A stretch of 64,000 nt of DNA from Xanthostigma xanthostigma. Taxonomy: Eukaryota; Arthropoda; Insecta; Raphidioptera; Raphidiidae. Every line of letters starts with the position of its first letter. Within the stretch, counting starts at the first letter, position 1. Positions 31,863 to 64,000 of the stretch are shown here, piece after piece. The position numbers were made by a program, and so were the translations under genes. The stretch is from contig OY754465.1 in NCBI GenBank assembly GCA_963575645.1, positions 2,232,001 to 2,296,000 of the forward strand, in the 5' to 3' direction. The notes beneath the pieces are model-generated. The model was not told where the DNA came from, made no database searches, and saw only the letters and a list, made by a program, of their open reading frames with translations.

Positions 31863-32497
31863 AAATTGTTTTCGTAACATGCAGCGACATCCGATATAAT
31901 TTGTTTAAAGCTATTACTTCAGAAGCAAACAAAAAAAACCGTTTTAGTACCAAATAGCGACATCTGATAGAAGCTATCAGTTTAGATACGAATCCGGTAG
32001 AATTTGCTCAAAAATAATTGGTTCAGACGCCGGGCCGCAAACGAAATACATTTTGCAGTATTATATCTATTGCTTGACATGGCTGATTATGTCAGAGGAT
32101 GTAGAGGCCAATAAACCATATATAAAAAAAACAGTTGTGTGGTTTTAAGAAACCACGACGCAAGTGAAACTTTTATTGGATTGTAAGCGTTGGATTGTAT
32201 AGACACTTATCCATCACGATTAATTATAAACAACAATATTCACATGAATACACGAATAAAAACATGTAAACACTGTACAGCACTTGCCCGCATGACAGAC
32301 TGACTATGTGTTATACATACTACACGGTCAGCTGATGCTAACCATGGGCGCCGCCATATTGGCCTTGGCTGCTCTACCGAGCGCCTACTCCGAGCGCCTT
32401 TCACTTTACCCCTACTCCGCGGCCGCCTGTAATGCGACATGCAACACACGGCCAGAAAAAATCTATTGCACCCGGGTGAGACCGGGACGAACTGCTA
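31863..32497 (+). mobile_element. Helitron 3' half, split by an insertion
   Basis: Matches the 3' part of the element at 55905 (TACCAAATAGCGACATCTGA, then CAGACGCCGGGCCGCAAACG) up to ATCTATTGC, and resumes after the insertion with CACCCGGGTGAGACCGGGAC and CTGCTAATA. The final CTAG has decayed to CTAA. The 5' end is missing where the satellite begins. Confidence 0.7.
32074..32460. mobile_element. 387-bp insertion with 9-bp target duplication
   Basis: ATCTATTGC stands at both junctions, and the Helitron reads through cleanly when the insert and one copy are removed. The insert begins TTGACATGGCTGATTATG and ends CGGCCAGAAAAA. The short terminal A-run would fit a truncated retroposon on the + strand; a 9-bp duplication also fits Mutator-like elements, but I find no inverted ends. 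GC-rich patch at 32345-32430. Type unresolved. Confidence 0.65.
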
Positions 32498-32985: not shown

Positions 32986-33355
32986 CTGCCTAAAAACGGT
33001 TCGCGCTCTCCCGACGCTATTTTTAAAGCTAGAGGGTTCTGGTAAACGCCAAATGAAAGACAAAGAATCAGACTACAGATCCTTCAGGCGAATTTTTTGA
33101 AAAAAAATTCCTGAAAAAACTTACAACCTTTTGAAAAAAATAATAAGTTACGTAATATTTCACACGTAGGCGAAACTGTTTTTCAAAAAAATCGCCTGAA
33201 GGATCTGTAGTCTGATTCTTTGTCTTTCATTTGACGTTTACCAGAACCCTCTAGCTTTAAAAATAGCGTCGGGAGAGCGCGAACCGTTTTTAGGCGAGGG
33301 GAAAAGATTTGAGATGAAGGGTGCACGGGGTGTTTGCAGGGACGAATACTCTTAA
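32986..33355. mobile_element. Foldback element, copy 1 (left arm truncated)
   Basis: Arms share ACGGTTCGCGCTCTCCCGAC, GACAAAGAATCAGACTACAG and CCTTCAGGCGA. The right arm continues to CGAATACTCTTAA, while the left arm stops at CCTAAAAACGG. The complete version is at 43533-43961. The central unique part is in the opposite orientation in the two copies. Confidence 0.85.
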
Positions 33356-43532: not shown

Positions 43533-43961
43533 TTAAGAGTATTCGTCCCTGCAAATACCCCCTGCACCCTTCATCTCAAATCTTTTCCCCTCGCCTAAAA
43601 ACGGTTCGCGCTCTCCCGACGCTATTTTTAAAGCTAGAGGGTTCCGGTAAACACCAAATGAAAGACAAAGAATCAGACTACAGATCCTTCAGGCGAATTT
43701 TTTGAAAAACAGTTTCGATTACGTGTGAAATATTACGTAACTTATTATTTTTTTCAAAAGGTTGTAAGTTTTTTCAGGAATTTTTTTTCAAAAAATTCGC
43801 CTGAAGGATCTGTAGTCTGATTCTTTGTCTTTCATTTGGCGTTTACCAGAACCCTCTAGCTTTAAAAATAGCGTCGGGAGAGCGCGAACCGTTTTTTAGG
43901 CGAGGGGAAAAGATTTGAGATGAAGGGTGCAGGGGGTGTTTGCTGGGACGAATACTCTTAA
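43533..43961. mobile_element. Foldback element, copy 2 (complete)
   Basis: TTAAGAGTATTCGTCCC... and its mirror ...GGGACGAATACTCTTAA enclose arms of about 165 bp. A central unique part of about 100 bp has TTACGTAACTTATTATTTTT. The peptide KLEGSGKHQMKDKESDYRSF read in one arm is repeated by the relative at 32986. It is open in frame in each arm but shows no domain. Confidence 0.9.
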
Positions 43962-47062: not shown

Positions 47063-47135
47063 ATATAGGGAATGAAAATAAATTTTTCGAAACGTCGGCC
47101 GCTAGCATAACATTGGTAAAGCTTATTTATGATCC
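47063..47135 (+). mobile_element. Penelope-like element fragment
   Basis: TTTTTCGAAACGTCGGCCGC, TTGGTAAAGCTTATTTATGA and CCTCAACTAAACCTTCTTCC, in the same order as at 11957. Lies about 95 bp before the exon at 47228, probably inside its upstream intron. Confidence 0.4.
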
Positions 47136-47227
47136 TCAACTAAACCTTCTTCCGTCGTTATAATTATTATTATGTATTTGAAATTCGTTTTCGATTTTTT
47201 CATTTATGTGTTTGTATTTTGTTTCAG

Positions 47228-47347
47228 ACTCGAAACAGTGGAAGAACGCCATGATGGCGTTGAATTTGGGGCCTAACGGGCCTTCGTTAAGCTTTATGAG
47301 CATCTGCGCATTTGTTCTCATTACGCTAGTGCAACAAACGCTAACTG
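47228..47347 (+). CDS. Signal-peptide exon of an unidentified secreted or membrane protein gene
   Basis: A long pyrimidine-rich tract ending TTTTGTTTCAG precedes the exon and CTG|GTAAGT follows it, both near-consensus splice sites. Of three frames only one is open. It holds ATG at 47251, again at 47254, then 32 codons to a phase-1 splice. The peptide MMALNLGPNGPSLSFMSICA continues with FVLITLVQQTLT: a short polar start, a hydrophobic core of about 12 residues and small residues near the end, as in a signal peptide. The first 23 bp are probably 5' UTR from an upstream exon, although that frame is open too. A phase-1 intron right after the signal peptide is frequent in immunoglobulin-domain and other extracellular genes. 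Only one exon is visible, and I do not recognise the gene. Confidence 0.7.
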
Positions 47348-47465
47348 GTAAGTAAAATATAAAATATTTTTCATCTATTTAAACTTACAATGAAAACCTG
47401 AAGTACAAACATTTGATCAAAAATAAATTTACGATTTTAGTGAGTCTTAAAAGCAGGCTCAATAC

Positions 47466-47587
47466 TATATTAGACCACAAGGGCCGAAAGTTTGGTATTC
47501 TTGCACTGCGCGCCATGATACCCACGGCGAGCCGACGCGCAGTGCAAGGATATCAAACTTTCAACCAGTGTAATGTATACTATTTTT
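47466..47587. mobile_element. Hairpin element of the AATAGTATA family, copy 5
   Basis: CCTTGCACTGCGCG mirrors CGCGCAGTGCAAGG with further mirrored GAAAGTTTG and ATAGTATAC-like tips. The right flank (47588-47755) is the inverse of the module at 23511-23652. It sits in the putative intron just after the exon at 47228. Confidence 0.75.
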
Positions 47588-47760
47588 TCCTTAATACCTC
47601 GGTCGTAATTACGCTTATTAAATACATTAATTAATTAACTACTTATTAATGACATAAAAACACAGATAAATTCCAAGCAAGTAGCTTGAGGTTATACGTA
47701 AAAACACGAATGACAGCTGTTAGCAATTGTTAGCTAAAATGTACAGTGAACAGTTGATAG
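47588..47760 (-). repeat. Flank module shared with 23511-23652
   Basis: Reverse complement carries AACAGCTGTCATTCG, ATTTATCTGTGTTTTTATGT and ACGACCGAGGTATTAAG. The arrangement next to a hairpin element is the same in both places. Confidence 0.7.
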
Positions 47761-47852
47761 ATTCTTTACTGCCGCCCGAACGTACGTACTTCCCGCATCA
47801 GTGCGTGTAATCCCATCAATGCGTAAATGTTAGACCTTCTGCCTTACAATTG

Positions 47853-47892
47853 ATGCCGAAAGTAGGTACTTTCGATCGAGGTATGAAGAAAA
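47853..47892. repeat. Short repeat with palindromic core, copy 2
   Basis: GATGCCGAAAGTAGGTACTT then TCGATCGAGGTATGAAGAAA, the inverse of 3697-3742. Confidence 0.55.
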
Positions 47893-48418
47893 AATATTTT
47901 GAACGTCTCTATCTGCTAAACTAAAACATATACAAAAGTCTGTTTACATATTTATGCTATTAGTAGACATAATTTATTTGAAAATGAACGAGATTTTTTT
48001 GAGTTTAGAAAAATATTTAAATTTCGCGACCGAAACTGACTATCAAATCAATAAATGGATTTAAAAAGATAAGTTTCCAGATAAGAATATCAATATGTTT
48101 TTTGTGTACATAAATAGCTATTATATTTTTTTATTGTATAAAGTTTGACAAACTAAAATTACCATCTAATTTACATATTAAAACACATAATAACGTTGTT
48201 TGATTTTGCACTTAGCTAAATCTTACTACAAATACTAAGAACGTCTTGAAAATATTCTCACTGATACCGTTATAGCTCAGACAGCTAACTGCCTATTTTT
48301 ATCTGAATAATTAAAACAGTGGCTTATGTAAGAATTATAGAATTATAGTCTTTTTTTTGCTTCCATCAAACTTCTATGTTCCATAAGACAGTATGGTGAT
48401 AGGATCAAAAAATCGTGT

Positions 48419-49012
48419 CTAATGGCCGTATTCACCGAACGTAAATAGTTATTTATTCGGTTCATTTGTTTTTCAGGTAGCTATTCCTCCGAATAAATAG
48501 CGATAATTCAATTCACCAAACACAATTATGTTTACTGTAGGTGTAAATCTATTCTGCCTTATTTTGAGAGTATAAATATATACCTATATATTCGCCTGAT
48601 ATGGCCACCACATAGATCAGAAAACCTAACCTATAAACGTTGAGTGTTATATTTGTAGTTTGCTCTTGTTAATTTATTTTTGTTGTTTATTAACCTTTTG
48701 TGAAGTGTATATAGCTGTAAAACATTAAAGTTAGTAGAAGTTTTGTGTGCAATTGGGTTATGACAAAACATTGTTATTTTGTGAAACTTTGTTTTGACGT
48801 TTACACTAACGCCATCGGTCGAATTTTTGGGTGAACGTCAAAATATTCAACAAAAAGAGCAAGGAATACAGTGCATTGTGTATTTATTGTGTAACTTACT
48901 TTTCCACCTAATATTTTGCTTGGTGAATTGAAAGTAGATTTTATTCTAACAAATAAAGTTCCAAGATTAGTAACTTCTATATCTTTAATAGTTTTCGGTG
49001 AATATGGGCATC
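48419..49012 (+). mobile_element. Repeat family E, copy 4 (both ends present)
   Basis: Left TAATGGCCGTATTCACCGAA; right TTCGGTGAATATGGGCATCA, an inverted match over about 20 bp. The interior matches copy 1: CTCCGAATAAATAGCG, then TTTACACTAACGCCATCGGT, then AATATTCAACAAAAAGAGCA. This copy defines the family as a 590-bp MITE; target duplication unclear. Confidence 0.85.
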
Positions 49013-49723
49013 AAAGGAGGCTTTGCCACTAAAATAGCTATTTTCGCTCACTGCTCCTCTCCTTTATACCGTGGCGTATAACCTATGTAACTAGTCAAGA
49101 AGTAGGCACTGAAAGAATGTTTCAAATCGGGTCAGTAGTTCACGAGTTTTGAACTAGCATAGATACAAACTACAATTTTCTTCGTTGCATCGCGAGTAAA
49201 ATCAAAATGCCAAAACCGTGTTTTCATTAACACAAAACCCGAAATTTCCTATTTTATTTTCATCATAAATGCCAAGTTTTACGGGCAATATTTTATATCT
49301 CGGAAATCGTATAACATGTTTAATGCTTCGTAAAAAAAATTTAATGTAACCTACATTTTAAAAACGTGTAATTTTGTTCACACCTGACTTGTAGCTATTT
49401 TGGCTAGAGGCACACACATAATAAGCATATAATATGTATGCTATAATATAGACGGTCAAGTTTCGAACTCCCGCCCACACAAATGATATAACCAACTGTT
49501 CAAATTAACATTGGATGTAAACATAGACTTGTAGTTGCATTTATTAATACACCGTTAACTTTCTTACAATAATCAATGGCACTTGTCTAGAGCGCTAAGT
49601 GGTGCGTCAATAAATTTTTGATTAATTATATTTATTTTAACAATAATAGCGACCTACTTCCTAAACTCTCCAAAATTTAGGGTCATAATCTTACAGTTCG
49701 CTTATGGACTATTTTGTTTTCAC

Positions 49724-50228
49724 TAATAGTTGCCTTGCCGGGTGCGATAGATATAATTCTGCAAAATGTTTTTCGTTTGCGGCCCATCGTCTGAACCAGA
49801 TTTGCTTCTGAACTAATTAGCTTTGAGGGAATTCTATCAGATGTCGCTACTTAGTACTAAAACAGTTTTTGTTTGCTTCTGAACTAATAGCTTTGAGTAA
49901 ACTTTCCGCGCCTGAACCATATTTGCTTCTGAACTAATTAGCTTTGAGGGAATTCTATCAGATGTCGCTACTTAGTACTAAAACAGTTTTTGGTTGCTTC
50001 TGAACTAATAGCTTTGAGTAAACTCTATCAGATGTCGTTACATGTTACTAAAACAGTTTTTTTTTTTGAGAAAACACCGTAATTTTATACAAAATATTTA
50101 ATAAAAACTATCCTATATAGCGTAAGTTGCACCAAGCAAGTCACATTTACAAAATATCATTAAAATTGGTTGAGTGGTTTCGGAAATTAGCGCGATCAAA
50201 ATTGTGACACGAGAATTTTATATATAGA
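49724..50228 (-). mobile_element. Non-autonomous Helitron, TCTATATATAT family, internally duplicated
   Basis: The minus strand starts A|TCTATATATAAAATTCTCGT and retains CGCGCTAATTTCCGAAACCA. The 3' end is damaged: GCACCCGGCAAGGCAACTAT. A 121-bp unit is tandemly duplicated inside (49793-49913 and 49914-50034), beginning GAACCA(G/T)ATTTGCTTCTGA. Confidence 0.75.
49793..50034 (-). repeat. 121-bp tandem duplication within a Helitron
   Basis: The two units differ at only a few positions and both carry ATCAGATGTCGCTACTTAGT and AGTACTAAAACAGTTTTTG. Confidence 0.85.
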
Positions 50229-50885
50229 TTACTGAATGTAAGGCCTGGTGCTAATGGAAAAGTTTTAATTGTGCAATTTTTCGGTCAGGTGTACGATGGT
50301 CAACACGCAATGATAAAACTGAATGATTTATAAAGTATTTTATTATTTAACAGCTGTTGTCAGTAAATTAACATTCTTAAGACTGCTTTATGAACACTTA
50401 TGCAACTTAACAGTTGACCAACTAATAATGCAGGATTGCGGTAAGCATTGTCAGAAATTTAGATCTGACAATGACCTTTAGATTGTGACCCTATATTCTA
50501 GATCACATGTCCCTTTTTGGTGAATTCCAGTCCTCCATCACCGAAAATTATGGTCATTCGGAATCTAGAAACTTTTTGAAAAAATTTAAGCGGGGGACCA
50601 AAGCATTGCAAAGATTATAAATATTTTAGTAAAGTAAAAAGAGGGGTTTGGTTTCTTGCGAATATCTCATAAACCATTGCAGTTAACTGAAAAAAAAGAT
50701 TATGAAGGAGCAGGAAATTTCCTGCAAAAAAGTCCCATCTTCTGTGGTCGCTCGAAAGTAAAAAGACACAAATTTTTTTTTAAATCGGCGTTTACTTTCG
50801 ATAGATTATATAGACCGTTCAAGAAATAATTATTACGGGACGGTTTATCGGCAGTGCCGGATGAAGACTCCTTGATGCCCTAAGC

Positions 50886-51877
50886 CAGTGGTTTCCAAAC
50901 TTGATGTTACTACGCCTCCCTTAAAAATATTTAATCATTTGGCGCCGCCCCTGAAGATTTTATAAAATAAAAACACAAACATTTTTACTCTTATAAAATT
51001 TATTCATACAAACTAATGGAAAACAATATTTTGACGTGATAACGTCTTATAAATTGATGAATCACCAATCTTATAAATTGATAAAACACCGGCTGCATGC
51101 ACGAAAAAGTGTAACGGTCGTAACGTTCCTAACGTTCGTAACGCGTAACGTTCCGCCTGACCCTGTGCGTGCTTTTTGCTAATTTCTCGCTCAATTTAAA
51201 TCAGATCGGTTTGAAACCAGTCTTAAACGAAAGAGGAGAACATTTTACATAGATTTCGTATAACAGAATTTGCCTAAACAGTTTTTTTTATACAAATTTA
51301 TATAGAAAAATAGCTGTATAAAATATAAATGCAATGTTGTCTAATGCATGGCGTGACGCGGTCGGTCGTCTTTGTTTGCCGTACATGGAAATTAGAATAT
51401 AACGTATGTCTTGTCTTAACATGAAAACGGCTGCATTTCTAATGTTTAATTCAATTTTTTGACATTAGTATTTTGTGAAATGCAACGCCTGCTAAGTTAA
51501 GTATTGGAATAACTAATTATTATTAGAACATAATACTTTGACAGTTGCAAACGTCACTTTTGACATTTCTTATCATTCCGACACCAAGGATAGCGGATTG
51601 AAACCAAATTTTGGGAGGTTTAGGTAATGTATTACGGAATACGTTATCACGTAAAACTATCGTCCGTAAACCGACTTTACAGACAACCATTTTTTTATTA
51701 TTGTTTTTAATGAGATGGATGTGCTTGTCTATTAGCACAAAGTTTATCAAATCTTGGTGGTTTATTCTCTCATTTTTTACATAGAAAACTTTAGCAGTAA
51801 TTTGGAAAATTGTTCACTGTGACTAATTTTCGCGGCTCCCTTTAGACTACTCCGCGCCCCCAGTTTGGAAAACGCTG
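50886..51877. mobile_element. Inner hAT element, perfect 8-bp target duplication
   Basis: The ends CAGTGGTTTCCAAACTTGAT and CCCCAGTTTGGAAAACGCTG have CCCTAAGC on both sides. The subterminal GGCGCCGCCCC and TCCGCGCCCCC blocks are mirrored. Contains repeat family A copy 4 (51029-51690). No transposase. Confidence 0.95.
51029..51690 (-). mobile_element. Repeat family A, copy 4, innermost of the nest
   Basis: The minus strand runs from GGTTGTCTGTAAAGTCGG to ACGTTATCACGTCAAAA. The interior here is partly different from copies 1 and 2, with TCTAATGCATGGCGTGACGC, so either a longer variant or a further insertion is present. Confidence 0.75.
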
Positions 51878-52591
51878 CCCTAAGCATTTCTTGCCTATGG
51901 GCACTCATCTCAACAGCAGTCTAAAAAAATTCTAATATTATCTGTTTCTGACATGTTCATTTTATAGAAAAAAAATAAAATTGTGAATGTTATAAGCTTA
52001 AAATTGATAGAAAAAATTAAAAAGCATAGAGTTTTAGGGGAAAAAAATTAATTTTACAATGAATGCTCTCATTAAAAAATTTGGTGCCTCCTGAGACATG
52101 ATTCCCTAAGCAGTTGCTTATAGGGTTAATCCAGCATTGTCTATCGGAAATAAAAATCGAATGTCAAGGAATTTATTGCACTGAAGAATTCTTTAGTAAC
52201 TTAAAATTACAAAACTCGAGAAAATCTAAAGTCATTGAAAGTCGTCGATACCGCAATACTGGTAATTTTTTTTCCGACCATAACGTAGCTTGAAACATAT
52301 TCTTCGTTCTTTGATGCACTTCACTGAGTATTTACAATTCTTGTAGATTGAGCGTTGAACACAAGCTAAAAATACCGTAGAACTTTTTCTTTTGGACTTT
52401 TTAACGAGAATTAGCAGTGACATTTCCGGCTGATCATCGCTTTGACGGTCGAGGTCGGATTGTTATATTGACTTAAAAATAAAAGTGAACACAGATCAAT
52501 AGGATTTCAGTTTACTGAACTCGAGAACAAAAATATACAAGGTGTACCACTGTGCAATACGGAATTTTGCCCCATGTAAGAAAAAATCTAA

Positions 52592-53314
52592 TCTATACTA
52601 ATATATCAAGCTGAAGAGTTTGTTTGAACGCGCTAATCTCAGGAACTACTAATTCAAATTGTAAAAAAAATATTTGTTGTATAGCCCATTTATCGAGGAA
52701 GGCTATAGGCTATATAATATTACGCTACCACCAATTGGAGCGGAACATCAATGAAAAATGTTGCAAGATGTATCTCAAAATTAGTCCGTCCGACAAATAT
52801 TATCAGGTGAAATGCCTTAACTAAATATTGCAATATTAGAGCGTGAAGTTTACAAGCCCGGATAGCTCAGTTAGTAAAGCGTAAGACTCTTAATGCCAGG
52901 GTCTAGGGTTCACGCCCCACGTCGGCGAATATATTTTTATTTTTTTTTTTTTTCTACTATGGTTTCTTCTAAGGCTTACATTTCAATTTTTTTAAATTTT
53001 ATTACGACTAATTAAAATTAAATAAATCTAATTAATAGCTCATTTGAAAACTGTTACAACTATAGGCACTTAAACAAAAATAATTTTTCTACAGTGTTTT
53101 CAATTAAATATTCATTATATTAAAAGAAATTTATTACTTAAAAAAAGTATAAATACTGCTTTTTAACGCCAAAAACTTTTGAACGGTAACTGCGATCATC
53201 ATGAAATTTGGACACAACATTCATCTCGGTAAATTAAGATGAATGTGTGTACTCATGTTCCTCCCTTCCCCATTCGTTCTTTTGCACCCGGGTGAAACCG
53301 GGCGGGACCACTAG
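52592..53314 (+). mobile_element. Non-autonomous Helitron with tRNA-like module, copy 2
   Basis: A|TCTATACTAATATATCAAGC to GGGACCACTAG|T, hairpin GCACCCGGGTGAAACCGGGC. The tRNA-Lys-derived segment is at 52856-52928. Longer than copy 1 because of AT-rich expansion after the tRNA. Confidence 0.85.
52856..52928 (+). pseudogene. tRNA-Lys(CTT)-like sequence inside a Helitron
   Basis: GCCCGGATAGCTCAGTTAGT gives the acceptor start and A box. The anticodon loop reads ACTCTTAA with CTT as anticodon. GGGTTCACGCC replaces the usual GGTTCGAATCC B box, and the closing GTCGGCG pairs with GCCCG only in part. Recognisably a lysine tRNA, but unlikely to be functional. Confidence 0.75.
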
Positions 53315-53429
53315 TAATACAATATATTCTTGATACATTTCGTAAAAAGCAAACGAGAAACGTTGATTTCTATTCATAATAATGCACTATAAATTTTATA
53401 ATTCAATTTAAGGCTAGGTTTGCATGAGA

Positions 53430-53640
53430 GGCGTTAAACGCGCGTTAGCCAAACGCGCGTTTACAATTTCAATACACTTGCGTATTAACTGTACATATGA
53501 TAACGCGCGTTGGTAGGCGACGCGCGTTCAACGCCACGATAACGCAAATACCCTGTCTACGCGCGTCAACGCGCGCTTAGATCATGTCTAACTAAACATT
53601 GATTATAGCATTGATGTGTTCAGATGCAACGCGCGATTTC
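53430..53640. repeat. Cluster of ACGCGCG words in AT-rich DNA
   Basis: AACGCGCGTT or a near variant occurs about seven times in 200 bp (53438, 53451, 53503, 53520, 53560, 53570, 53628). The core CGCG palindromes are extremely rare elsewhere in the window. It precedes the Harbinger remnant and may be the subterminal region of that element, but I could not find a matching right end. Confidence 0.6.
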
Positions 53641-53735
53641 AAGCGATAGGTTCCTGCTGTCCAATATTTTCGATTATTTTTTCTAAAAAGTTTTCTTTAA
53701 AATAAAAAATTGATGCAGAAGAATTTGATTATGAT

Positions 53736-53926
53736 CTATTCATCGACGAAATAGTAGTTGAAAAATTTAGGTTCATAATTCCTGAGATTCGGATAAAGTG
53801 TAATGTACAAGCTTGAGGTAACTCTATTTTGTAAAATAGGATGAACCCAATATTTTCGATTTTTTTTATGACGCTGTCTTCTTCGATTAGTAGCATACAT
53901 AAACAGATTGCATCTGCAACGGCCAT
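53736..53926 (-). pseudogene. Harbinger transposase N-terminal remnant, second locus
   Basis: One frame reads MAVADAICLCMLLIEEDSVI and the next frame continues KNRKYWVHPILQNRVTSS and LYPNLRNYEPKFFNYYF before a stop. A helical start, a basic RRR/KK..(Y)WVHP(I) motif and Y..L...LR.(D/E)..KF.NYFRM are the standard beginning of Harbinger transposases. One frameshift joins the two parts. The catalytic domain is absent. Confidence 0.75.
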
Positions 53927-54054
53927 CTTCGACAGAATACAACACTCGACTAGCGTATAAACTATAAAATAAAGGCGCTCTAAACGCATAAAAACGGTAA
54001 CCATGTGAACAGTGGTATAAATGTCAACGATTTTTAATCTGTTCTTCAAAAGTC

Positions 54055-54265
54055 TAGAACGCTGTTCGCCATGTTGGATTCCGGCGTGACGTCACTTCGC
54101 CTGTAAACTACCTACGTTTATGTTGTGCTGTGTGTTTTTTTGAAGTTATTTCGTGTTATTATCACGTTTATAGACTTCTATCCCATATTTTATTGATTTC
54201 GCATCATGGAAGACGGTTTCGTAAAAGCAGAAAGTACTGATCTACCAAGGATAAAAATAAAATAG
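54055..54265 (+). pseudogene. Possible 5' end of a transposon gene (YqaJ-type protein)
   Basis: CGCCATGTTGGATTCCGGCG and GTGACGTCACTT make a GC-richer upstream part with a CRE-like TGACGTCA. An ATG at 54206 encodes MEDGFVKAESTDLPRIKIK before a stop. The series EGFVKAES..LP resembles the start of transposon-associated insect proteins with SWIM and YqaJ-nuclease domains, as I remember them. Nothing downstream supports the rest, so this is a stub at best. Confidence 0.3.
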
Positions 54266-54884
54266 ACGCTTTTTTAATTGTAGTGTTACTATGGTTATTG
54301 GAGTGCACTATCGTTATTATTTACAATTCAAAAATTCAAAATTATAAATTAAGATATTTTTATAGGGATTTTAATAGATTAAAAACAGCTTATATAAGTC
54401 TTTCCTGGTCTGTTTTATGTGACCTTAACATTGTTAACTCTTCAAACGGAGTAGGAAATGGTCCGAGCTCGCATTAAACCGGTTGCAGTGCTGCAACAAC
54501 AACAAAAATAAAATAAAATGCCGATTCAAGAGGAAACGGTAATTTTGATTGAAATTAAATAACAATTTTTTGCTGATGCCGAACACTTTTAAAAGGAAGA
54601 ATTATACACACAAAAAAAATTAAATTTCAATTTAGTTGAATGAGAATATGTTTAATGCACGAATTGTTCGTCTTGATAAACACTTTATTTTCTATAGTTA
54701 CATGCATTTGTTATAACAGTACTAACAGCTTATTCATTTACATTCATAAACGATTTTGTATAGACACAGGCCCGGACTCGACGTGCAGGTTACCGAGCAA
54801 TTACACGGTGAAATAATCGAAGGGCCGTCAAAAAAATAAACAAAAAATTCACCAATTGGGCGACGGAACCATTTTTTTTTCTAG

Positions 54885-54940
54885 TTAGCAACGATTATAC
54901 CATATTTTTTCATTAGAAAATGTGGTATAATCGTTGCTAA
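54885..54940. repeat. Near-perfect hairpin
   Basis: TTAGCAACGATTATACCATA mirrors TGTGGTATAATCGTTGCTAA across a short AT-rich loop. CCAATTGGGCGACGG lies 30 bp upstream, as at 42527. Confidence 0.8.
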
Positions 54941-55249
54941 ATAGAAATTTTTTTTTTATTCTAAATTAATACGGTAGATCCCTTTTATATACTTTAATAC
55001 ATTTTTCATAAAAATATTGTTTTTTACCATGTCAGATTCAATTTTTAAGCGCCGTGACAGCGTTTTTTTTATAATCACATCAGCTTTTACAAGGGCCGTG
55101 TCAAAACACCACCTTAATTTTTTTCTGAAAGAAGGTTTGACATCTATTTTATGCATAAAAATTGGTCTGTCTGCGAAAAAATGTTTTTTACTATGACAGA
55201 CTTCATAAAAAAAATTTATAACAAATGAAGTCTGACAAATTTATTTACA

Positions 55250-55441
55250 AAAATAACTGAAATGTAGAAAATATGCCAAGTTCCTTGCCTAGACGTTTAT
55301 AAATATACACGCCAAACTTGGCAAGTTTTCATTAAAGGAGTGATCATTATTGAGACCCTTGAAAACTTGCCAAGTTTGGCGTGTAAATTTATAAACGTGT
55401 AGGCAAGGAACTTGGCATATTTTCTACATTTCAGTTATTTT
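55250..55441. mobile_element. Foldback element
   Basis: Arms of about 82 bp, AAAATAACTGAAATGTAGAA onward, with GCCAAGTTCCTTGCC and CGCCAAACTTGGCAAGTTTT mirrored. The loop is 30 bp. Only a few mismatches. Confidence 0.9.
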
Positions 55442-55904
55442 GTGTTTCAAAAATATAAAATTCAGGTTCGGAGGGGTTAAATCGGGACAGTTGGCAAGCT
55501 TTATACACCGTATATGGAAAAGGAAAAATATCTTGCATTCAAGAATGTTTTAAACGGTATATTCCGTGGCACGATATGTGTTTCACGGTTTAATTGAGAG
55601 TTCGTTAATCCGATATATAATCGATATTCAACTTGTAACTGGATACCATTAGTACACGGACATTTACAAGCTGTACCAACATAACAGATAATCGGACTTC
55701 TGGTTTCCTGTATCCACTTATCGATTTTGTATCGTTCGTTTTTATTTATTTCCTAAACAGTACATTTGCATGTTATTATTTATATATTTTGCACTTTATT
55801 TCGCAAAATGAAACACCTCTCAGGAAATATAATCCACTAGTTTTGCCTGAAATTCAAGTGCCCACATAAAAAGTGATCTATACTTTAAGTTGTGTTACCC
55901 AACA

Positions 55905-56291
55905 TCTATATATATCAAATTCTCGTGTCACAATTTTGGCCGCGCTAATCTCCAAAACCACCGAACCGATTTTAACGAAATTTTGTAAATGTGTCTTCCT
56001 TGATGCAACTTACGCTACAGGTGGTTTTTATTAAATATTTTGTACAAAATACGGTGTTTTCTAAAAAAAAAAACTGATTTAGTAACATGTAATGACATAT
56101 TTAGTCAAATTCTGTTAGTTCAGAAGCAAACAGAAAAAAAAACTGTTTTAGTACCAAGTACCGACATCTGATAGAATTCCCTTAGAAGCAAATCTGGTAG
56201 AATTTGCTCAAAGCTATTAGTTCAAACGCCGGGCCGCAAACCAAATACATTATATCTATCGCACCCGGATGAAACCTGGACGGACCGCTAG
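55905..56291 (+). mobile_element. Non-autonomous Helitron, TCTATATATAT family, reference copy
   Basis: A|TCTATATATATCAAATTCTC to GGACCGCTAG|T, both flanks fitting A|T insertion. The 3' hairpin is GCACCCGGATGAAACCTGGA. The interior has ATTTTGTAAATGTGTCTTCC and the GACGCCGGGCCGCAAACC block. 387 bp, non-coding. Confidence 0.85.
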
Positions 56292-56304
56292 TAAAATGAT
56301 ATAT

Positions 56305-56400
56305 TACAAGCGGTCCGGTCCGGCTTCGCTCGAATTTGTAGATTGCCACCGTTTTTTCGTCGACAAACGTTGCAAAAGTATCAAGACGTTAAAAATTATG
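56305..56400 (+). mobile_element. Repeat fragment (17735 family)
   Basis: GCGGTCCGGTCCGGCTTCGC then CCACCGTTTTTTCGTCGAC and GTTGCAAAAG, as at the start of the repeat at 17735. Truncated. Confidence 0.6.
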
Positions 56401-56416
56401 AAAAAAAAATGAAAAA

Positions 56417-56630
56417 TTGGTTGTCTGTAAAGTCGGTTTACGGACGATAGTTTTACGTGATAACGTATTCCGTAATACATAACCTAAATTTTAGTAGCTG
56501 TCAAACTTGGGCCGAAGCATACTGCGCTCTCGCTTGCACGCACAGGGTCAGGCGGAACGTTAGGAACGTTACACTTTTTCGTGCGTGCAGCTGGTGTTTC
56601 ATCAATTTATAAGACGTTATCACGTCAAAA
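56417..56630 (+). mobile_element. Repeat family A, copy 5 (short form)
   Basis: About 214 bp from TTGGTTGTCTGTAAAGTCGG to ACGTTATCACGTCAAAA. The interior has TTGGGCCGAAGCATACTGCG, CAGGGTCAGGCGGAACG and AACGTTAGGAACGTTAC. Probably close to the minimal mobile unit of the family. Confidence 0.8.
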
Positions 56631-57279
56631 GCTTTTGACAAAACAATTTAAAACTTTTACTTACACGCAAAGTTAAAAATATTAATTAAAGCGTAATCGA
56701 AAGTTATGAATTTAATTAAAGAAAACAGAGAAATTAATTTCATTAAAATGTTATAAAGAACGCTTTAAATTAACTTTTGCATTTTTGTTAAAAACATTGT
56801 GAGAGTGTTATAATTTAGAAATGGTATTTTTACAACTCAATGATAAATTGATTGGATGATTATAAATTATAGGACTTGGACGCTTCAAAATGATTAATTA
56901 TTTGAATATTGATAATGAACGACAACATCCGAGTTCTTTAACCTGTTTACTAGCGTCAGATTTTATAGTAGTTTGTCATGCCCATAAAAATGTTGTAACT
57001 TTTTACGATTTTGTGGCGGTTTAGTTATATGAAGGAAACAGTTTTTAAGTTCGCTATTTTTTGCACATCATTCTAAAACTTGAATTCATCTTTCTTCTTA
57101 ACATCTACTTTTGATTAAATCTCTGTAATCTATATAATTGTTATAAAAAGCAATATCCGTTTCCCTTATTAATTTGCTTCAATATTTTCAGCGACCACGT
57201 TTATAAGTTCATTGGCCATTTCAACTCCGAAATTTTAATTTTAATTAAGAATATCTATACTACATAATCTATATACATA
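56631..57279. other. No supported feature
   Basis: AT-rich background; nothing identifiable. Confidence 0.45.
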
Positions 57280-57580
57280 TATATGTGCTATAAGATATTG
57301 CTTCTTGCCAAATTTCATGATTCCGGATCAACGGGAAGTACCCTATAGGTTTTGATTCCCTTGCGAGTGTCCAAATATGCGGCACAAGCGGGCATATCTT
57401 TTGATTGCATCGATTTTTTCACAGCTTCAAGAGATTGCTGACCTGAGTATTTGATATTAATTTCAACTTGATAACTCCACTCGTTCCTGAGAAAAAGGGG
57501 CTTGACAGACAGACGGACAACGAAGTGATCCTATAAGAATTCCTTTTTTGAGGTAGGCCGTACGGAACCCTAAAAACTCT
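57280..57580 (+). mobile_element. Interspersed retroposon-like repeat
   Basis: GCCAAATTTCATGATTCCGG, GATCAACGGGAAGTACCC, CTTGACAGACAGACGGACAA and CGTACGGAACCCTAAAAA. This order is widespread in insect genomes. A relative lies inverted at 6196. Confidence 0.55.
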
Positions 57581-57738
57581 TCGCGTTATGACTCACCTAC
57601 CTAGAGGGATGCGTGATTTTTGCCGATGCATGTGGGATTTAGGATGTTAAAATTTTTGGAAATATTTCCATATGATTCTACTCATGGAGAGGCATTGACT
57701 GAACTGTTAAAAGAAGTAAAAAAATGATTTCGGTATTA

Positions 57739-58241
57739 TCATATATATTAATACGCTAAGGTTAAAGATGTTTGCCTCCCTTTTTGGAAAAAACCTCACA
57801 ATTTCTCCACATAAATTATATATCATTTTACAGATAATTGCTTGCTTTACTGACATCGACAATTTAAAAATTTATTATTGCTTTTGTTTTTATAAATTAA
57901 TTAAAATACAGCAACGCTGAATAACGTCTGCCATCTGACGGCTTGAATTTTGAAATAGCGAGCAACGCTGAACAACGTCACAGCAATGCTGCATGATGCC
58001 ATCTGACGGCTTAGCTCAACGCTTTTTCTACTTGCGCCTCTATATGACAATTTTAGCAAAATATTTCTTCGATCTGTCATCTGAGCTTCATATTGTAATA
58101 CAACAAAAAGAAGAACGTTATAAGCAGTGTGCAAAATTAAAAAAACGAATTGAATACCTGCAATCATATTTAAAAAATAATTTTGTAAAGTGATAATTAT
58201 TATACTTATTTAGTGCGAATAATTCGCACAGGTCACTCTAG
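57739..58241 (+). mobile_element. Non-autonomous Helitron, hairpin GTGCGAAT family, copy 2
   Basis: A|TCATATATATTAATACGC to GGTCACTCTAG|T, hairpin GTGCGAATAATTCGCAC. Lacks the internal duplication of copy 1 but has an extra TAAGGTTAAAGATGTTTG near the start. Keeps a coding-like segment at 58074-58193. Confidence 0.9.
58074..58193 (+). pseudogene. Coiled-coil-like coding segment within the Helitron
   Basis: LSSELHIVIQQKEERYKQCA continues KLKKRIEYLQSYLKNNFVK and two stops. Charged, leucine-spaced and helical, with composition unlike random AT-rich translation. The same segment in copy 1 (about 15670-15790) is broken by a 2-base deletion. Helitrons often carry pieces of host genes, and this could be one. 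I cannot name the source; an ELL/occludin-type C-terminus was considered but not shown. Confidence 0.4.
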
Positions 58242-58917
58242 TGTTCTATTAAAATTGTAGAGCCAAGCAAAAATGAAGCAGAATAGATGATGATGAAGAA
58301 CCGTGAATTTTAAAGAGGCATTATCTCTTCGCTTTTCTGATGCAGACAAAGCACCGCTCGAACGTCTTCCAATTTTTGACGTTGACTTTGAAACAATTGT
58401 TTTTTTTTTGTTTGACCGGTCTATGATTTTAAATTTGAATAAAATCTTTGTATGAATTATGTAATATAGTATATACCATTAACGTCTGATATTTTGATTG
58501 TAATTTTAGACGTACATATTAATAATAATTTACTTATGTAATAGTATATATACATTATACAATATAAAATATATAATATGCTGTTATATGTGCATATTAT
58601 ATTATGTCTGAAAATAAAAGGTACGAGTATAATATGTATTAGATATCTACAACGTGAAGTTTCTGTGGTCAAACTGGAATCACGAGTTTGCGGATGTTCA
58701 ATTCCCTATCCGGTCAACGAACCAAGAACCTCAACAGATTTGTTTTACAGTCGCCGTCAAACAAAAATCACTCAACTTGACATTAATAGAGCTTTTGAAA
58801 TAAACGTATTCTGTAGTAATTCTTCATCTCTAATTGTTCATTAATGATTTGACATCGAGGTTTTATTCGGTTCGATCTCAGCCGACGAAGGTAAATGTGA
58901 AAGAGAAATTTTTGGAA

Positions 58918-59170
58918 TTTTATACAATGAAACAATTGTTTTCAAAATATTATGACAGCTAATCTTTGAGACTTAAAATAAATACGAAAGAAAGAAAGTT
59001 ATATTATATGGTGAGTAATTTAAATAAATGAAATTAACCTAAATTTGAAGCGAAAGATGCAATATCATAAATTCGAATTATTATAATTATTATATAAATT
59101 TAGGTTATGTATTACGGAATACGTTATCACGTAAAACTATCGTCCGTAAACCGACTTTACAGACAACCAA
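58918..59170 (-). mobile_element. Repeat family A, copy 6 (partial)
   Basis: The minus strand starts GGTTGTCTGTAAAGTCGG and matches the long form through AGCTGTCATAATATTT and AACAATTGTTTCATTG, then stops; the CACGTCAAAA end is missing. Confidence 0.8.
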
Positions 59171-59274
59171 TTTTTTTCTTTTAATTTATCAGTCATCCTG
59201 TTTGGAGTTTATATAGACGCCCGAAAACAGATGTCATTATCCTCAAGTTTTTATTAAAATTCTATGAATTAACT

Positions 59275-59736
59275 AGCCGTTATCCGCGGCTTCGCACGCG
59301 ATTGAGACGAAACACGGATGCATTCCCATTATTTGACATAGTTACTTCTTTCTCGACTAATAAATTTCAAAATCGATGACATTCACGTGATCAACGTCCT
59401 GACAAACCTTGAAAATGACACCCATGTTGATTTTTAGACTATTTCACCCTCTGAAGGGGTTGTTTTTGAAAAAGCATAAAACACGTGTTTATTTATTTGT
59501 TGACAGGAGTAATCCTGCACATTTTCGAATTGACACATCTGTCTCCATGTAAATTTTGAACCCCCGTTACACCCTTTCAGGGGTCGAATTTCCAAAAATC
59601 TGTTCTTAGCGGATGTCTACGTCATAATAACTATCTCTGTGCCAAATTTCAGCCCAATCCGGCCAGTGGTTTGAGCTGTGCGTTGATAGATCAGTCAGTC
59701 ACTGACGGTTTCCATTTATATATTTAGATGATTTTG
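59275..59736 (+). mobile_element. Interspersed repeat
   Basis: TAGCCGTTATCCGCGGCTTC, TTCACCCTCTGAAGGGGTTG, CCAAATTTCAGCCCAATCCG and GATAGATCAGTCAGTCACTG, ending TATATATTTAGATGATT. The tail with GATAGATCAGTCAGTCA is a familiar ending of insect interspersed repeats. Only copy in this window. Confidence 0.5.
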
Positions 59737-60453
59737 CTTACCTTAACGAAAGACTTGTCCCTGCTGATAGTGCGTTTAGTCCAGTAGGAATCGGCGCATG
59801 AGTATCGAAAACTATTCCACCTCAATTTTTTTATGCGATTCTCTTCAAATTACCCTACTGATGATATAAATGCATGTTGCCAGGGGGCAACCCCGTGCCA
59901 TATTGTTTAAACCGAAATTGTTTAAACAATTGCGAGGAATTGTTATTTTTCAACCGGACAAATTTTTTTTGTATTCTTTGTTAAAATACAATTAAAAAAG
60001 GTCCTATGGCTTTTCACGATAAAGTTAATATTTTTAGAGATATCAATTTTTAAAGGTTCGAAAAATCTTAAATTTGGGTACTTTTGACCCATGAAAAATA
60101 TATTAAAAAAAAAATAAAATATAAATAATATTTTTTTTTTATTCTTTATACAATAGTTAACAATATCCTTAATTGCGATTTCTAAAAATTTAATTATTTA
60201 TACCTGTTTTTAATTGTTAATTTCGCGCGTTCACAAGTATGCGTTGCTTACCTATAAGTATCGTTGTCTCTCTCTGACTCATACGCTGCGTCGGCCTCTC
60301 GGTGTCCTGAATCATTATTTTACATTTATCTTTTAAATAAATAAAATTATCGACCAATTTTTCAGACAATATATTAACAAACAATATAATATAATAATAT
60401 TGTTTGTTAATATATTGTCTGAAAAATTAGTCGATAATTTTATTTATTTAAAA

Positions 60454-60989
60454 CAGTGATTCCCAAAGTGGTCTATATCGACCCCCAGGGGTCGACGACA
60501 ACTTGCAAGGGGTCCATGTCAGCGGGAAAAAAATTGGGGGTCCATGAAATGAAAATGGGGGTCCACGATAGTGAATCTCCTAACAAAAAAAGAAACAAAC
60601 TGGACATCGTTAACCGAAGAGATTTAAGATTAAATCTAACTAAATTGATGCCAAATGTTGAAAATTTATTATTAAAGCATCAGGTTCATACCTCACACTA
60701 AAAGCATTTATTTTTTGCTTAGTTATTTTATGTAACAGAAAGTAAATTTTAATTTGATTGGTTTAATATGAATCTAATTAATAAATGTATAAAACTAAAC
60801 ATTTCTCACTACATTTCACTACCGTTATAAATTTAAATCGTTCAAAGTGAGTAGCACTATACCGGTTGTCAAAAATATATTTGAAATTAATGAATTTGCA
60901 AAAAATCTATATCAGATAAGCAGGGGGTCTACCCAAAACCGAAAAACATGGCAAGTGGTCTACGAGACAAAAAAGTTTGGGGACCTCTG
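60454..60989 (+). mobile_element. hAT element, perfect 8-bp target duplication
   Basis: ATTTAAAA on both sides; ends CAGTGATTCCCAAAGTGGTC and AAGTTTGGGGACCTCTG. Inside are GGGGTC-rich subterminal blocks and the last codons of a hAT transposase. It is inserted in one arm of the giant palindrome. Confidence 0.95.
60585..60701 (+). pseudogene. hAT transposase C-terminal remnant
   Basis: The frame ends KKRNKLDIVNRRDLRLNLTK then LMPNVENLLLKHQVHTSH and a natural stop. K.RN(R/K)L.....DLR..L....P.I..L...(K)Q.H.SH is the usual C-terminus of ZBED/Buster-like hAT transposases, just after the dimerisation region. Residues before KKRN in the same frame are not transposase; that ATG (60456) lies in the terminal repeat. 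Confidence 0.8.
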
Positions 60990-62062
60990 ATTTAAAAGAT
61001 AAATGTAAAATAATGATTCAGGACACCGAGAGACCGACGCAGCGTATGAGTCAGAGAGAGACAACGATACTTATAGGTAAGCAACGCATACTTGTGAACG
61101 CGCGAAATTAACAATTAAAAACAGGTATAAATAATTAAATTTTTAGAAATCGCAATTAAGGATATTGTTAACTATTGTATAAAGAATAAAAAAAAAATAT
61201 TATTTATATTTTATTTTTTTTTTAATATATTTTTCATGGGTCAAAAGTACCCAAATTTAAGATTTTTCGAACCTTTAAAAATTGATATCTCTAAAAATAT
61301 TAACTTTATCGTGAAAAGCCATAGGACCTTTTTTAATTGTATTTTAACAAAGAATACAAAAAAAATTTGTCCGGTTGAAAAATAACAATTCCTCGCAATT
61401 GTTTAAACAATTTCGGTTTAAACAATATGGCACGGGGTTGCCCCCTGGCAACATGCATTTATATCATCAGTAGGGTAATTTGAAGAGAATCGCATAAAAA
61501 AATTGAGGTGGAATAGTTTTCGATACTCATGCGCCGATTCCTCCTGGACTAGTTGTCTCTCGCGCATAAATTGTCCGGACGGTGGCACTGAATTACGAAA
61601 TCGAAATTTCAAGTGTATAAAAATCAACGTACATAATATTATAAAATAAAATCACTATATATTGTCATTTATTATGGTTGTCTGTCAATCTTGTTGCGCA
61701 TAATACAGCGGCCGTCACTTGAAAGAAATCACTATAAAGGTTATAATTTTACCGGTTGCAATGTGTTATTTAATTTATTAATAGCTGCTACCGTCGGTAT
61801 ATTATGCAAATGTCACATTTATACGTACACTTGTATTATAATTTTAATAGTATAACAGTCACAACTGATTATTTACAGTGAAGACTGTTCTTCGTGTTCA
61901 TATACATAATTGCATTCGCAGTAGAGTAACAGTAGAATCGCACAGTTATGAGTTCACTACAGCTGACCCGCGGTAATCCCCTGTTTAATCCGGCACCCCC
62001 TATAATCCGACATGCCTATAACAGTACATTGTGTTTAGATTTGATCTTACCGTTTTTATAGT

Positions 62063-62382
62063 GTACCGTCCGGTTTGCAAAAGAACGAATGGGGAAGGAA
62101 GGAACATGAGTACGCACGTTCATCTTAATTTACCGAGATGAATGTTGTGTCCAAATTTCATGATGATCGGAGTTACCGTTCAAAAGTTTTTGTCGGACGG
62201 ACAAATTTTGAGTTTTTCATTGATGCTCCGCTCCTATTGGACGCGACGTGATATTATATAGCCTATAGCCTTCCTCGATAAATGGACTATCCAACAAAAA
62301 AAAGTGTTCAATTCGAACCAGTAGTTCCTGAGATTAGCACGTTCAACCAAGCAAACTCTTCAGCTTTATATATTAGTATAGC
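62063..62382 (-). mobile_element. Helitron, both ends damaged (22114 family)
   Basis: The minus strand retains TATACTAATATATAAAGCTG, CGCTAATCTCAGGAACTACT, GGCTATAGGCTATATAATAT and GGTAACTCCGATCATCATG. The 3' hairpin is partly deleted (TTTGCAAACCGGACGG). No tRNA module. Confidence 0.75.
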
Positions 62383-62389
62383 TGATGTA

Positions 62390-63480
62390 GTTTTTCGGAT
62401 TAAAAAAGTTCCGGACTACAAGAGGTTGGTGGCCGTACACTATAAATTCGATCGTCCGACACAAAACGTTTTTCGGATTACCGTGGGTCAACATTAGAGT
62501 TTTAGATCACGAATCGAGATTTTTTATTTGTTCAAAGTTCAAAAAAGTCAACTATATATGCCTACCCACGCACTGTTTTTATATTGAAGTACTTTCGTAA
62601 ATTCCTTTTTTTAACCACGTTAAAAATTAAAGGAAAATTAATAAAATTGAAAACACTCCACGTGGAACGATGTTAAATTTATAAATTCTACAATCGTACT
62701 GAACAATTAATTTGTTTTACAATAACCTTGAAAAAGTAATTACGTAACACAGATTTTGTTATAATTCAACAAAATACGAGGTGGTCCAACACTAGGCATT
62801 TTTAAAAAAGAAGAGGTTTTATGTTCGACGCGTATAATTTATGTATTTTCAGTCATAATTTTTCTAAGGATAAACCGATTGGTACCATAAAAATCGGTGC
62901 AGCCGTTTTTGACTGACTATAAAAAAATCGAATTGATATACTTTTACCAAATTAAAACACCGTCAAACAAAATTCAAATTGGTCCAGCGGTCTTATCAAA
63001 TCTAGACAGACACGAAACGGTTATTTTAGTAACAGAGTTAATTTTCAGTGAACCATTTTTACATAACATGTGTTCGCTTAATAATTATAAATTATTATAC
63101 GTATTGTTAAATTAATTGACTGAACAATTATAAATATATCATCAACGAAATGATGTTCATTGTTGGATACGTTTTAACTTATTTATTAAACTTATATCAA
63201 GTTGTTGAAACATTATACTGCACTACCCTATTATTTTTTTATGGTACAGTGAACATTTCATATGTACTTAAAGAACAAATTATTGTATTAAAGTGTAGAA
63301 TTTTAATTATCTAATAGGTTATGTCTGTCAATGGTTTCCGGGATTTCTTTATGTTTTTCTTGTAAATTGTGCTAATTTTATTCACCGTTTTTACAAACTT
63401 ATTTCGATTAAAAAAAAGAAAACAGTCGCAGTGCAAAACCTTACCGACAACATAGTGTTCATTTGTTCTTCGAGTAATTA
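62390..63480. other. No supported gene
   Basis: AT-rich. Minor ORFs show no motif. 61968-62020, upstream, has TTTAATCCGGCACCCCCTAT, possibly one tip of a pogo-like MITE, but no second end was found. Confidence 0.4.
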
Positions 63481-64000
63481 TTCCTCCGAATAAATATCGA
63501 TAATTCACAAACCATAATTATGGTTACTGCAGGTATAAATCTATCTTGTCTTAATTCCAGGGTATAAAGATTTATTCGCCTGATAAAATAATAATGGCCG
63601 CCACATAGATCATAATACCTAACCTAAAAACGTGGAGTAGTATATCTACAGTTTTAGTGGAAGTTTTGTGTGCAATTAGGTTAGGATAAAACATTATTAT
63701 TTTGTGAAACTTTTTTTGACGTTTACACTAACGCCATCGGTCGGATTTTTGGGTGAACTTCAAAATATTCAACAAAGAGAGCAAGGAATATATTCTTTAA
63801 CTAACTTTTCTACCTGGTATTTTGCTTGAAAGTAAATTTTATTAAGATGAAGGAAGGTATTGGTTGAGGATCATAAAATAAGCTTTACTTACAAGCTTAT
63901 TTTATGATCCTCAACCAATACCTTCCTTCATCTTAATATTCTATTGGATCAACACTACTTTAACTGAAGTAAATTTTATTCTAACGAATAAATTTATTCC
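63481..64000 (+). mobile_element. Repeat family E, copy 5, with Penelope-like insertion, runs off the window
   Basis: CTCCGAATAAATATCGATAA, CAGGTATAAATCTATCTTGT and TTTACACTAACGCCATCGGT as in the other copies. The 5' end (GGCC.TATTCACC) is missing. The insertion at 63844-63966 splits AAGTAAATTTTATT. Confidence 0.75.
63844..63966 (+). mobile_element. Penelope-like insertion with inverted partial duplication
   Basis: AAGTAAATTTTATT (14 bp) flanks both sides. Inside, AAGATGAAGGAAGGTATTGG is mirrored by CCAATACCTTCCTTCATCTT around AGCTTTACTTACAAGCT, and a unique tail TTGGATCAACACTACTTTAA follows. The right arm resembles GTAAAGCTTATTTT..CCTCAACC at 11957 and 47063. Inverted, truncated copies with target duplications over 10 bp are typical of Penelope-like elements. 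Confidence 0.65.

Follow-up and report, generated by a model that had tools for sequence, protein, structure and literature searches.

The window considered here (the whole stretch of DNA analysed, 64,000 nucleotides) is filled with repeats, and a lone 120-base segment within it, at 47228-47347 on the plus strand, looks like an exon that encodes a signal peptide. Is this segment a real exon, and if so, to which gene does it belong? We consider it highly probable that it is the signal-peptide first coding exon of a tenectin gene, whose product would be a secreted matrix protein of large size and mucin-like character. The DNA examined amounts to 304 kb in all, reaching from 40 kb before the window to 200 kb downstream of it (264 kb with the window); coordinates above 64000 continue the window numbering. 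The features of the proposed gene are as follows.

47204-47227, plus strand: 3' splice site, a T-rich tract with CAG, called from the sequence and from its resemblance to the downstream acceptors.
47228-47347, plus strand: predicted first coding exon of a tenectin-like gene, with a 23-base leader, ATG at 47251, 32 codons and one base over (phase 1).
47251-47347, plus strand: putative signal peptide MMALNLGPNGPSLSFMSICAFVLITLVQQTLT, with a hydrophobic core of approximately ICAFVLITLV.
47348-64000, plus strand: the part of predicted intron 1 that lies in the window, from the donor GTAAGT at 47348 toward the next exon at 80415, with many repeats.
80415-80879, plus strand: exon 2, from the exon scan, encoding the first two VWC domains.
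80990-85780, plus strand: exon 3, from the exon scan, encoding, together with exon 2, VWC-like sequence rich in cysteine and a long stretch rich in Ser, Thr and Glu.
85949-89048, plus strand: exon 4, added by inspection.
89278-89377, plus strand: exon 5, the terminal exon, added by inspection, with TGA at 89378.

The initial annotation had named an acceptor, the donor CTG/GTAAGT, a single open frame, a double ATG and a hydrophobic N-terminal segment, and we find every one of these in the sequence. The acceptor reads GTATTTTGTTTCAG/AC at position 47228, T-rich and terminating TTTGTTTCAG; it is similar to the acceptors of exons 2 to 5, where TTTCAG or TTTTCAG closes three and TTTTAG the other. 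The donor after 47347 (ACTG/GTAAGT) leaves one base of the next codon, that is, phase 1. Only the third frame is open across the exon, the other two forward frames containing stops. Its ATGATG occupies 47251-47256, a third ATG of the same frame lies at 47296, and the peptide MMALNLGPNGPSLSFMSICAFVLITLVQQTLT comprises 32 residues and one base of the following codon. One feature counts against a signal peptide: with the start at 47251 there is no basic residue in the n-region before the hydrophobic core, which is unusual. The frame is also open from 47251 back through SKQWKNA to the acceptor, and a start in an upstream exon would give the n-region a basic residue. The acceptor before 47228 implies that there is probably a further exon upstream, likely non-coding.

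Repeats flank the exon on both sides (47072-47144 and 47461-47900). Within the 304-kb region there is no second match to any of its 120 bases, as against 43% of the window, and in the 623-Mb genome (28 contigs) its single match is itself, in a search that skips very common words. Its GC content is 47.5%, compared with an average of 33.0% across windows of 120 bases; among those sampled, 3.1% were equally high. The 40-residue exon peptide gave nothing convincing against PDB (best E 3) and no match in Pfam, two pieces of it returned nothing useful from a full-text literature search, and scans of the window with Rfam (at gathering scores) and for tRNAs yielded 0 matches each.

We searched the 264 kb, on either strand, for combinations of acceptor, open frame and donor and scored them by splice weights and a codon table, with terminal exons outside the scan. 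The exon ranks ninth among the non-overlapping exon-like stretches; the eight that outscore it include one exon of the tenectin-like gene and a repeat at 32299-32475. Its codon usage is neutral (+0.6 bits with a lepidopteran-like table), and codon usage was dropped as proof of coding. Given this neutral score and the ninth rank, the case for the exon is not built on coding score. The stretch 32299-32475, which scores higher as an AG-ORF-GT unit, was rejected because a high-copy repeat accounts for 165 of its 177 bases.

That repeat, 32240-32463, deserves description in its own right. Among 40 candidates scored of 776, 39 are other copies, with 99-100% identity over 223-224 bases, and from this identity we conclude that the repeat has probably been active recently. 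The frame 32299-32475, which runs through it and just beyond, is deceptively exon-like.

Such a frame illustrates how splice-like signals and a hydrophobic frame might coincide by chance in repeat-rich DNA, a reading also favored by the neutral codon usage and by the ease with which short peptides of this type can be found by eye in 64 kb. A scan designed for signal-peptide exons (donor score at least 4, a hydrophobic 10-mer, few acids) found four candidates in the window (both strands, all phases), of which 47228-47347 was the best on each of three measures; the scan gives the third ATG at 47296, not the double ATG, as the start. The earlier claim that this is the only place in the window where splice signals and a sensible peptide coincide calls for a qualification, there being four candidates and one repeat that scores higher as an exon, but its first place on all three measures stands. 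At a low threshold, seven phase-1 donors in the 120 kb that precede exon 2 follow a frame with an ATG and a hydrophobic 8-mer; the donor at 47348 scores 7.2, the next two 4.3 and the remaining four at most 2.5. A stricter test was passed by three candidates between the window start and 80414.

We compared these results with sequences of 80,414 bases simulated under an order-3 Markov model. None of 60 runs, and none of a further set of 250, gave a phase-1 candidate equalling the exon on all three scores, the mean number of candidates per simulation being 0.23 and 0.21, respectively; with relaxed thresholds there was one candidate in 60 simulations, a point that chance can claim. Applied to the real 304 kb on both strands and in all phases, the stricter test returned six candidates, and the other five never equal the exon on all three scores. 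The nearest of them, in phase 0 on the minus strand at 195797-195868, surpasses the exon in its donor (8.3), again a point for chance, but is weaker in core and acceptor. Taking the simulations together with the single genome match, and with the fit in strand, phase and function to a start-less gene downstream, we regard a chance coincidence as very improbable.

That gene is the second part of the argument. Four exons on the same strand as 47228-47347, with compatible phases, begin 33 kb downstream. The frame of exon 2 runs back from 80415 to a stop without meeting any in-frame ATG; the gene therefore lacks a start there and needs a phase-1 start exon. When 47347 is joined to 80415, the last base of the first exon and the two leading bases of exon 2 form the codon G/AA (Glu), giving LVQQTLT-E-SNGCYYNF, and the five exons joined make one open frame of 2851 residues. 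Intron 1 as predicted from this exon model spans 47348-80414, 33,067 bases. A phase-1 intron after the signal peptide had been taken in the initial annotation to suit an extracellular gene, and this expectation is supported: the start-less gene downstream matches the phase, and its layout is that of Tenectin, a secreted protein. Phase-1 introns are over-abundant around signal-peptide cleavage sites according to PMC1626468, and PMC7259759 links long phase-1 introns to signal peptides in human-mouse data. A first guess made from the intron phase, an Ig-domain gene, gave way to the VWC domains of the downstream exons. The reading of the segment as a real signal-peptide exon, with a matching gene 33 kb downstream, is accordingly supported at the level of sequence.

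A real exon could also belong to a different secreted-protein gene, or tenectin could have several alternative first exons of which this is only one. The acceptor before 47228, with the further upstream exon that it makes probable, is compatible with this, as is the reach of the examined DNA to only 40 kb upstream of the window; furthermore, part of PMC2515642 reports that probes from different regions of fly tnc give different expression patterns, and mentions an isoform. For another gene, however, suitable partners are wanting in between: the three plus-strand AG-frame-GT stretches listed for 47348-80414 (terminal exons being outside the scan) all have negative coding scores, whereas the next gene downstream has no start and requires exactly phase 1. 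We therefore judge a different gene or an alternative first exon unlikely, if somewhat less so than chance, and in what follows assign the exon to the tenectin-like gene as its predicted first coding exon.

Of the 57 cysteines in the 2851-residue model, one belongs to the putative signal peptide, fifty form five blocks of ten, and the remaining six make up a smaller block. These blocks match five complete VWC domains and a partial one, the arrangement described for Drosophila Tenectin (five complete and one partial vWFC domain; PMC6040883). Pfam VWC was detected in all four of the pieces scanned (the last 34 residues, exon 5, being outside the scan), above the curated cut-off in one, the first VWC exon (28.1 bits against a cut-off of 27.6), and under it in the other three (E 0.0009-0.003). 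On the first VWC exon DUF1496 was also above its Pfam cut-off, with no stretch significant on its own; this exon had no PDB match at E<=0.01 and no close relatives in viral contigs or GTDB genomes. Two cysteine-free stretches, of 1437 residues (between the cysteines at 283 and 1721) and 912 residues (between those at 1784 and 2697), are rich in S, T, P and E; S, T and P together make up 34.2% and 37.4% of them and Glu about 20%, so that the two PTS regions of a Tenectin are present. The putative N-terminal signal peptide of the model is contributed by exon 47228-47347, and the model contains an ATG, a hydrophobic core, a phase-1 donor near the predicted cleavage site and a next exon of matching phase. 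We give the name tenectin to the gene by this domain layout, rather than by alignment to known Tenectins, and we are confident that exon and gene assignment would hold jointly.

Likeness to Drosophila melanogaster Tenectin (Tnc, Mur96B) extends to predicted secretion, a length of about 2800 residues, the five VWC domains plus a partial one, and the two long S/T/P-rich stretches. According to a section of PMC3410870, the fly protein has 2788 residues, is predicted to carry a signal peptide and lacks a transmembrane domain; that source also describes poor identity between species in the PTS domains; a part of PMC2515642 counts four predicted VWC domains. The name is also used in a butterfly, Melitaea cinxia, for gene MCINX005469 in a portion of PMC4079591. 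There are also differences. The S/T/P-rich stretches here hold about 20% Glu; Pfam, applied to four pieces at E<=0.1, did not find here the fibronectin-like domain with which a portion of PMC3410870 draws Tnc; and the RGD motif, a reported feature of Drosophila Tenectin, is absent from the 2851-residue model. The predicted first intron here is 33 kb long and repeat-rich. Matches to RGD-like patterns in the model are RYD at 184 (in the second VWC domain), KGD at 650 and SGD at 1311. That Tenectin in this insect lineage lost RGD while keeping its mucin and VWC layout is a tentative and rather doubtful proposal; were it true, Tenectin would be a space-filling luminal gel, or integrin would be bound through RGD-like motifs such as RYD.

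We propose the following course of expression. The 33,067-base intron 1 would be removed by a phase-1 splice from 47347 to 80415, and the signal peptide would direct the product of about 2851 residues into the secretory path. By the -3,-1 rule, the signal peptide would be cut near TLT/ES or TES/NGC, leaving two to four residues ahead of the first VWC cysteine. Judging from fly Tenectin, the product may be a secreted mucin-like matrix protein of epithelial lumina, basal matrix or synapses.

The gene model also bears on the repeats of the window, which the initial annotation had supposed to be intronic. For those downstream of the exon this is supported: from 47348 to the window end they would fall within the predicted first intron of 33,067 bases. 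For those upstream of 47228 there are two possible settings, an intron of the 5' UTR or the promoter region.

Several repeats and neighboring frames can be described further. The inverted repeat 59777-61551 has two 562-base arms, 100% complementary and 651 bases apart, and resembles a very young long-armed transposon. The elements 32988-33355 and 43533-43896, each with internal inverted arms and mutually 98% complementary over 364 bases, look like two members of a single foldback or MITE family. Beyond the window, 183927-185298 (plus strand) is a long open exon with a coiled-coil-like translation, 432 residues of which gave no match in Pfam at E<=0.001. A run of exon-like frames that lies beyond the tenectin gene, at approximately 131873-160643 (minus strand), some with negative coding scores, may represent a neighboring gene or genes.

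Annotation easily overlooks first exons that lie far from the rest of their gene, leaving secreted proteins without a signal peptide. The locus described here indicates that an isolated signal-peptide exon of 120 bases can be recognized in a window full of repeats and assigned to its gene through intron phase and the missing start. The biology to which it leads is ordinary: a first coding exon of the usual kind, in an ordinary gene of a known insect family.
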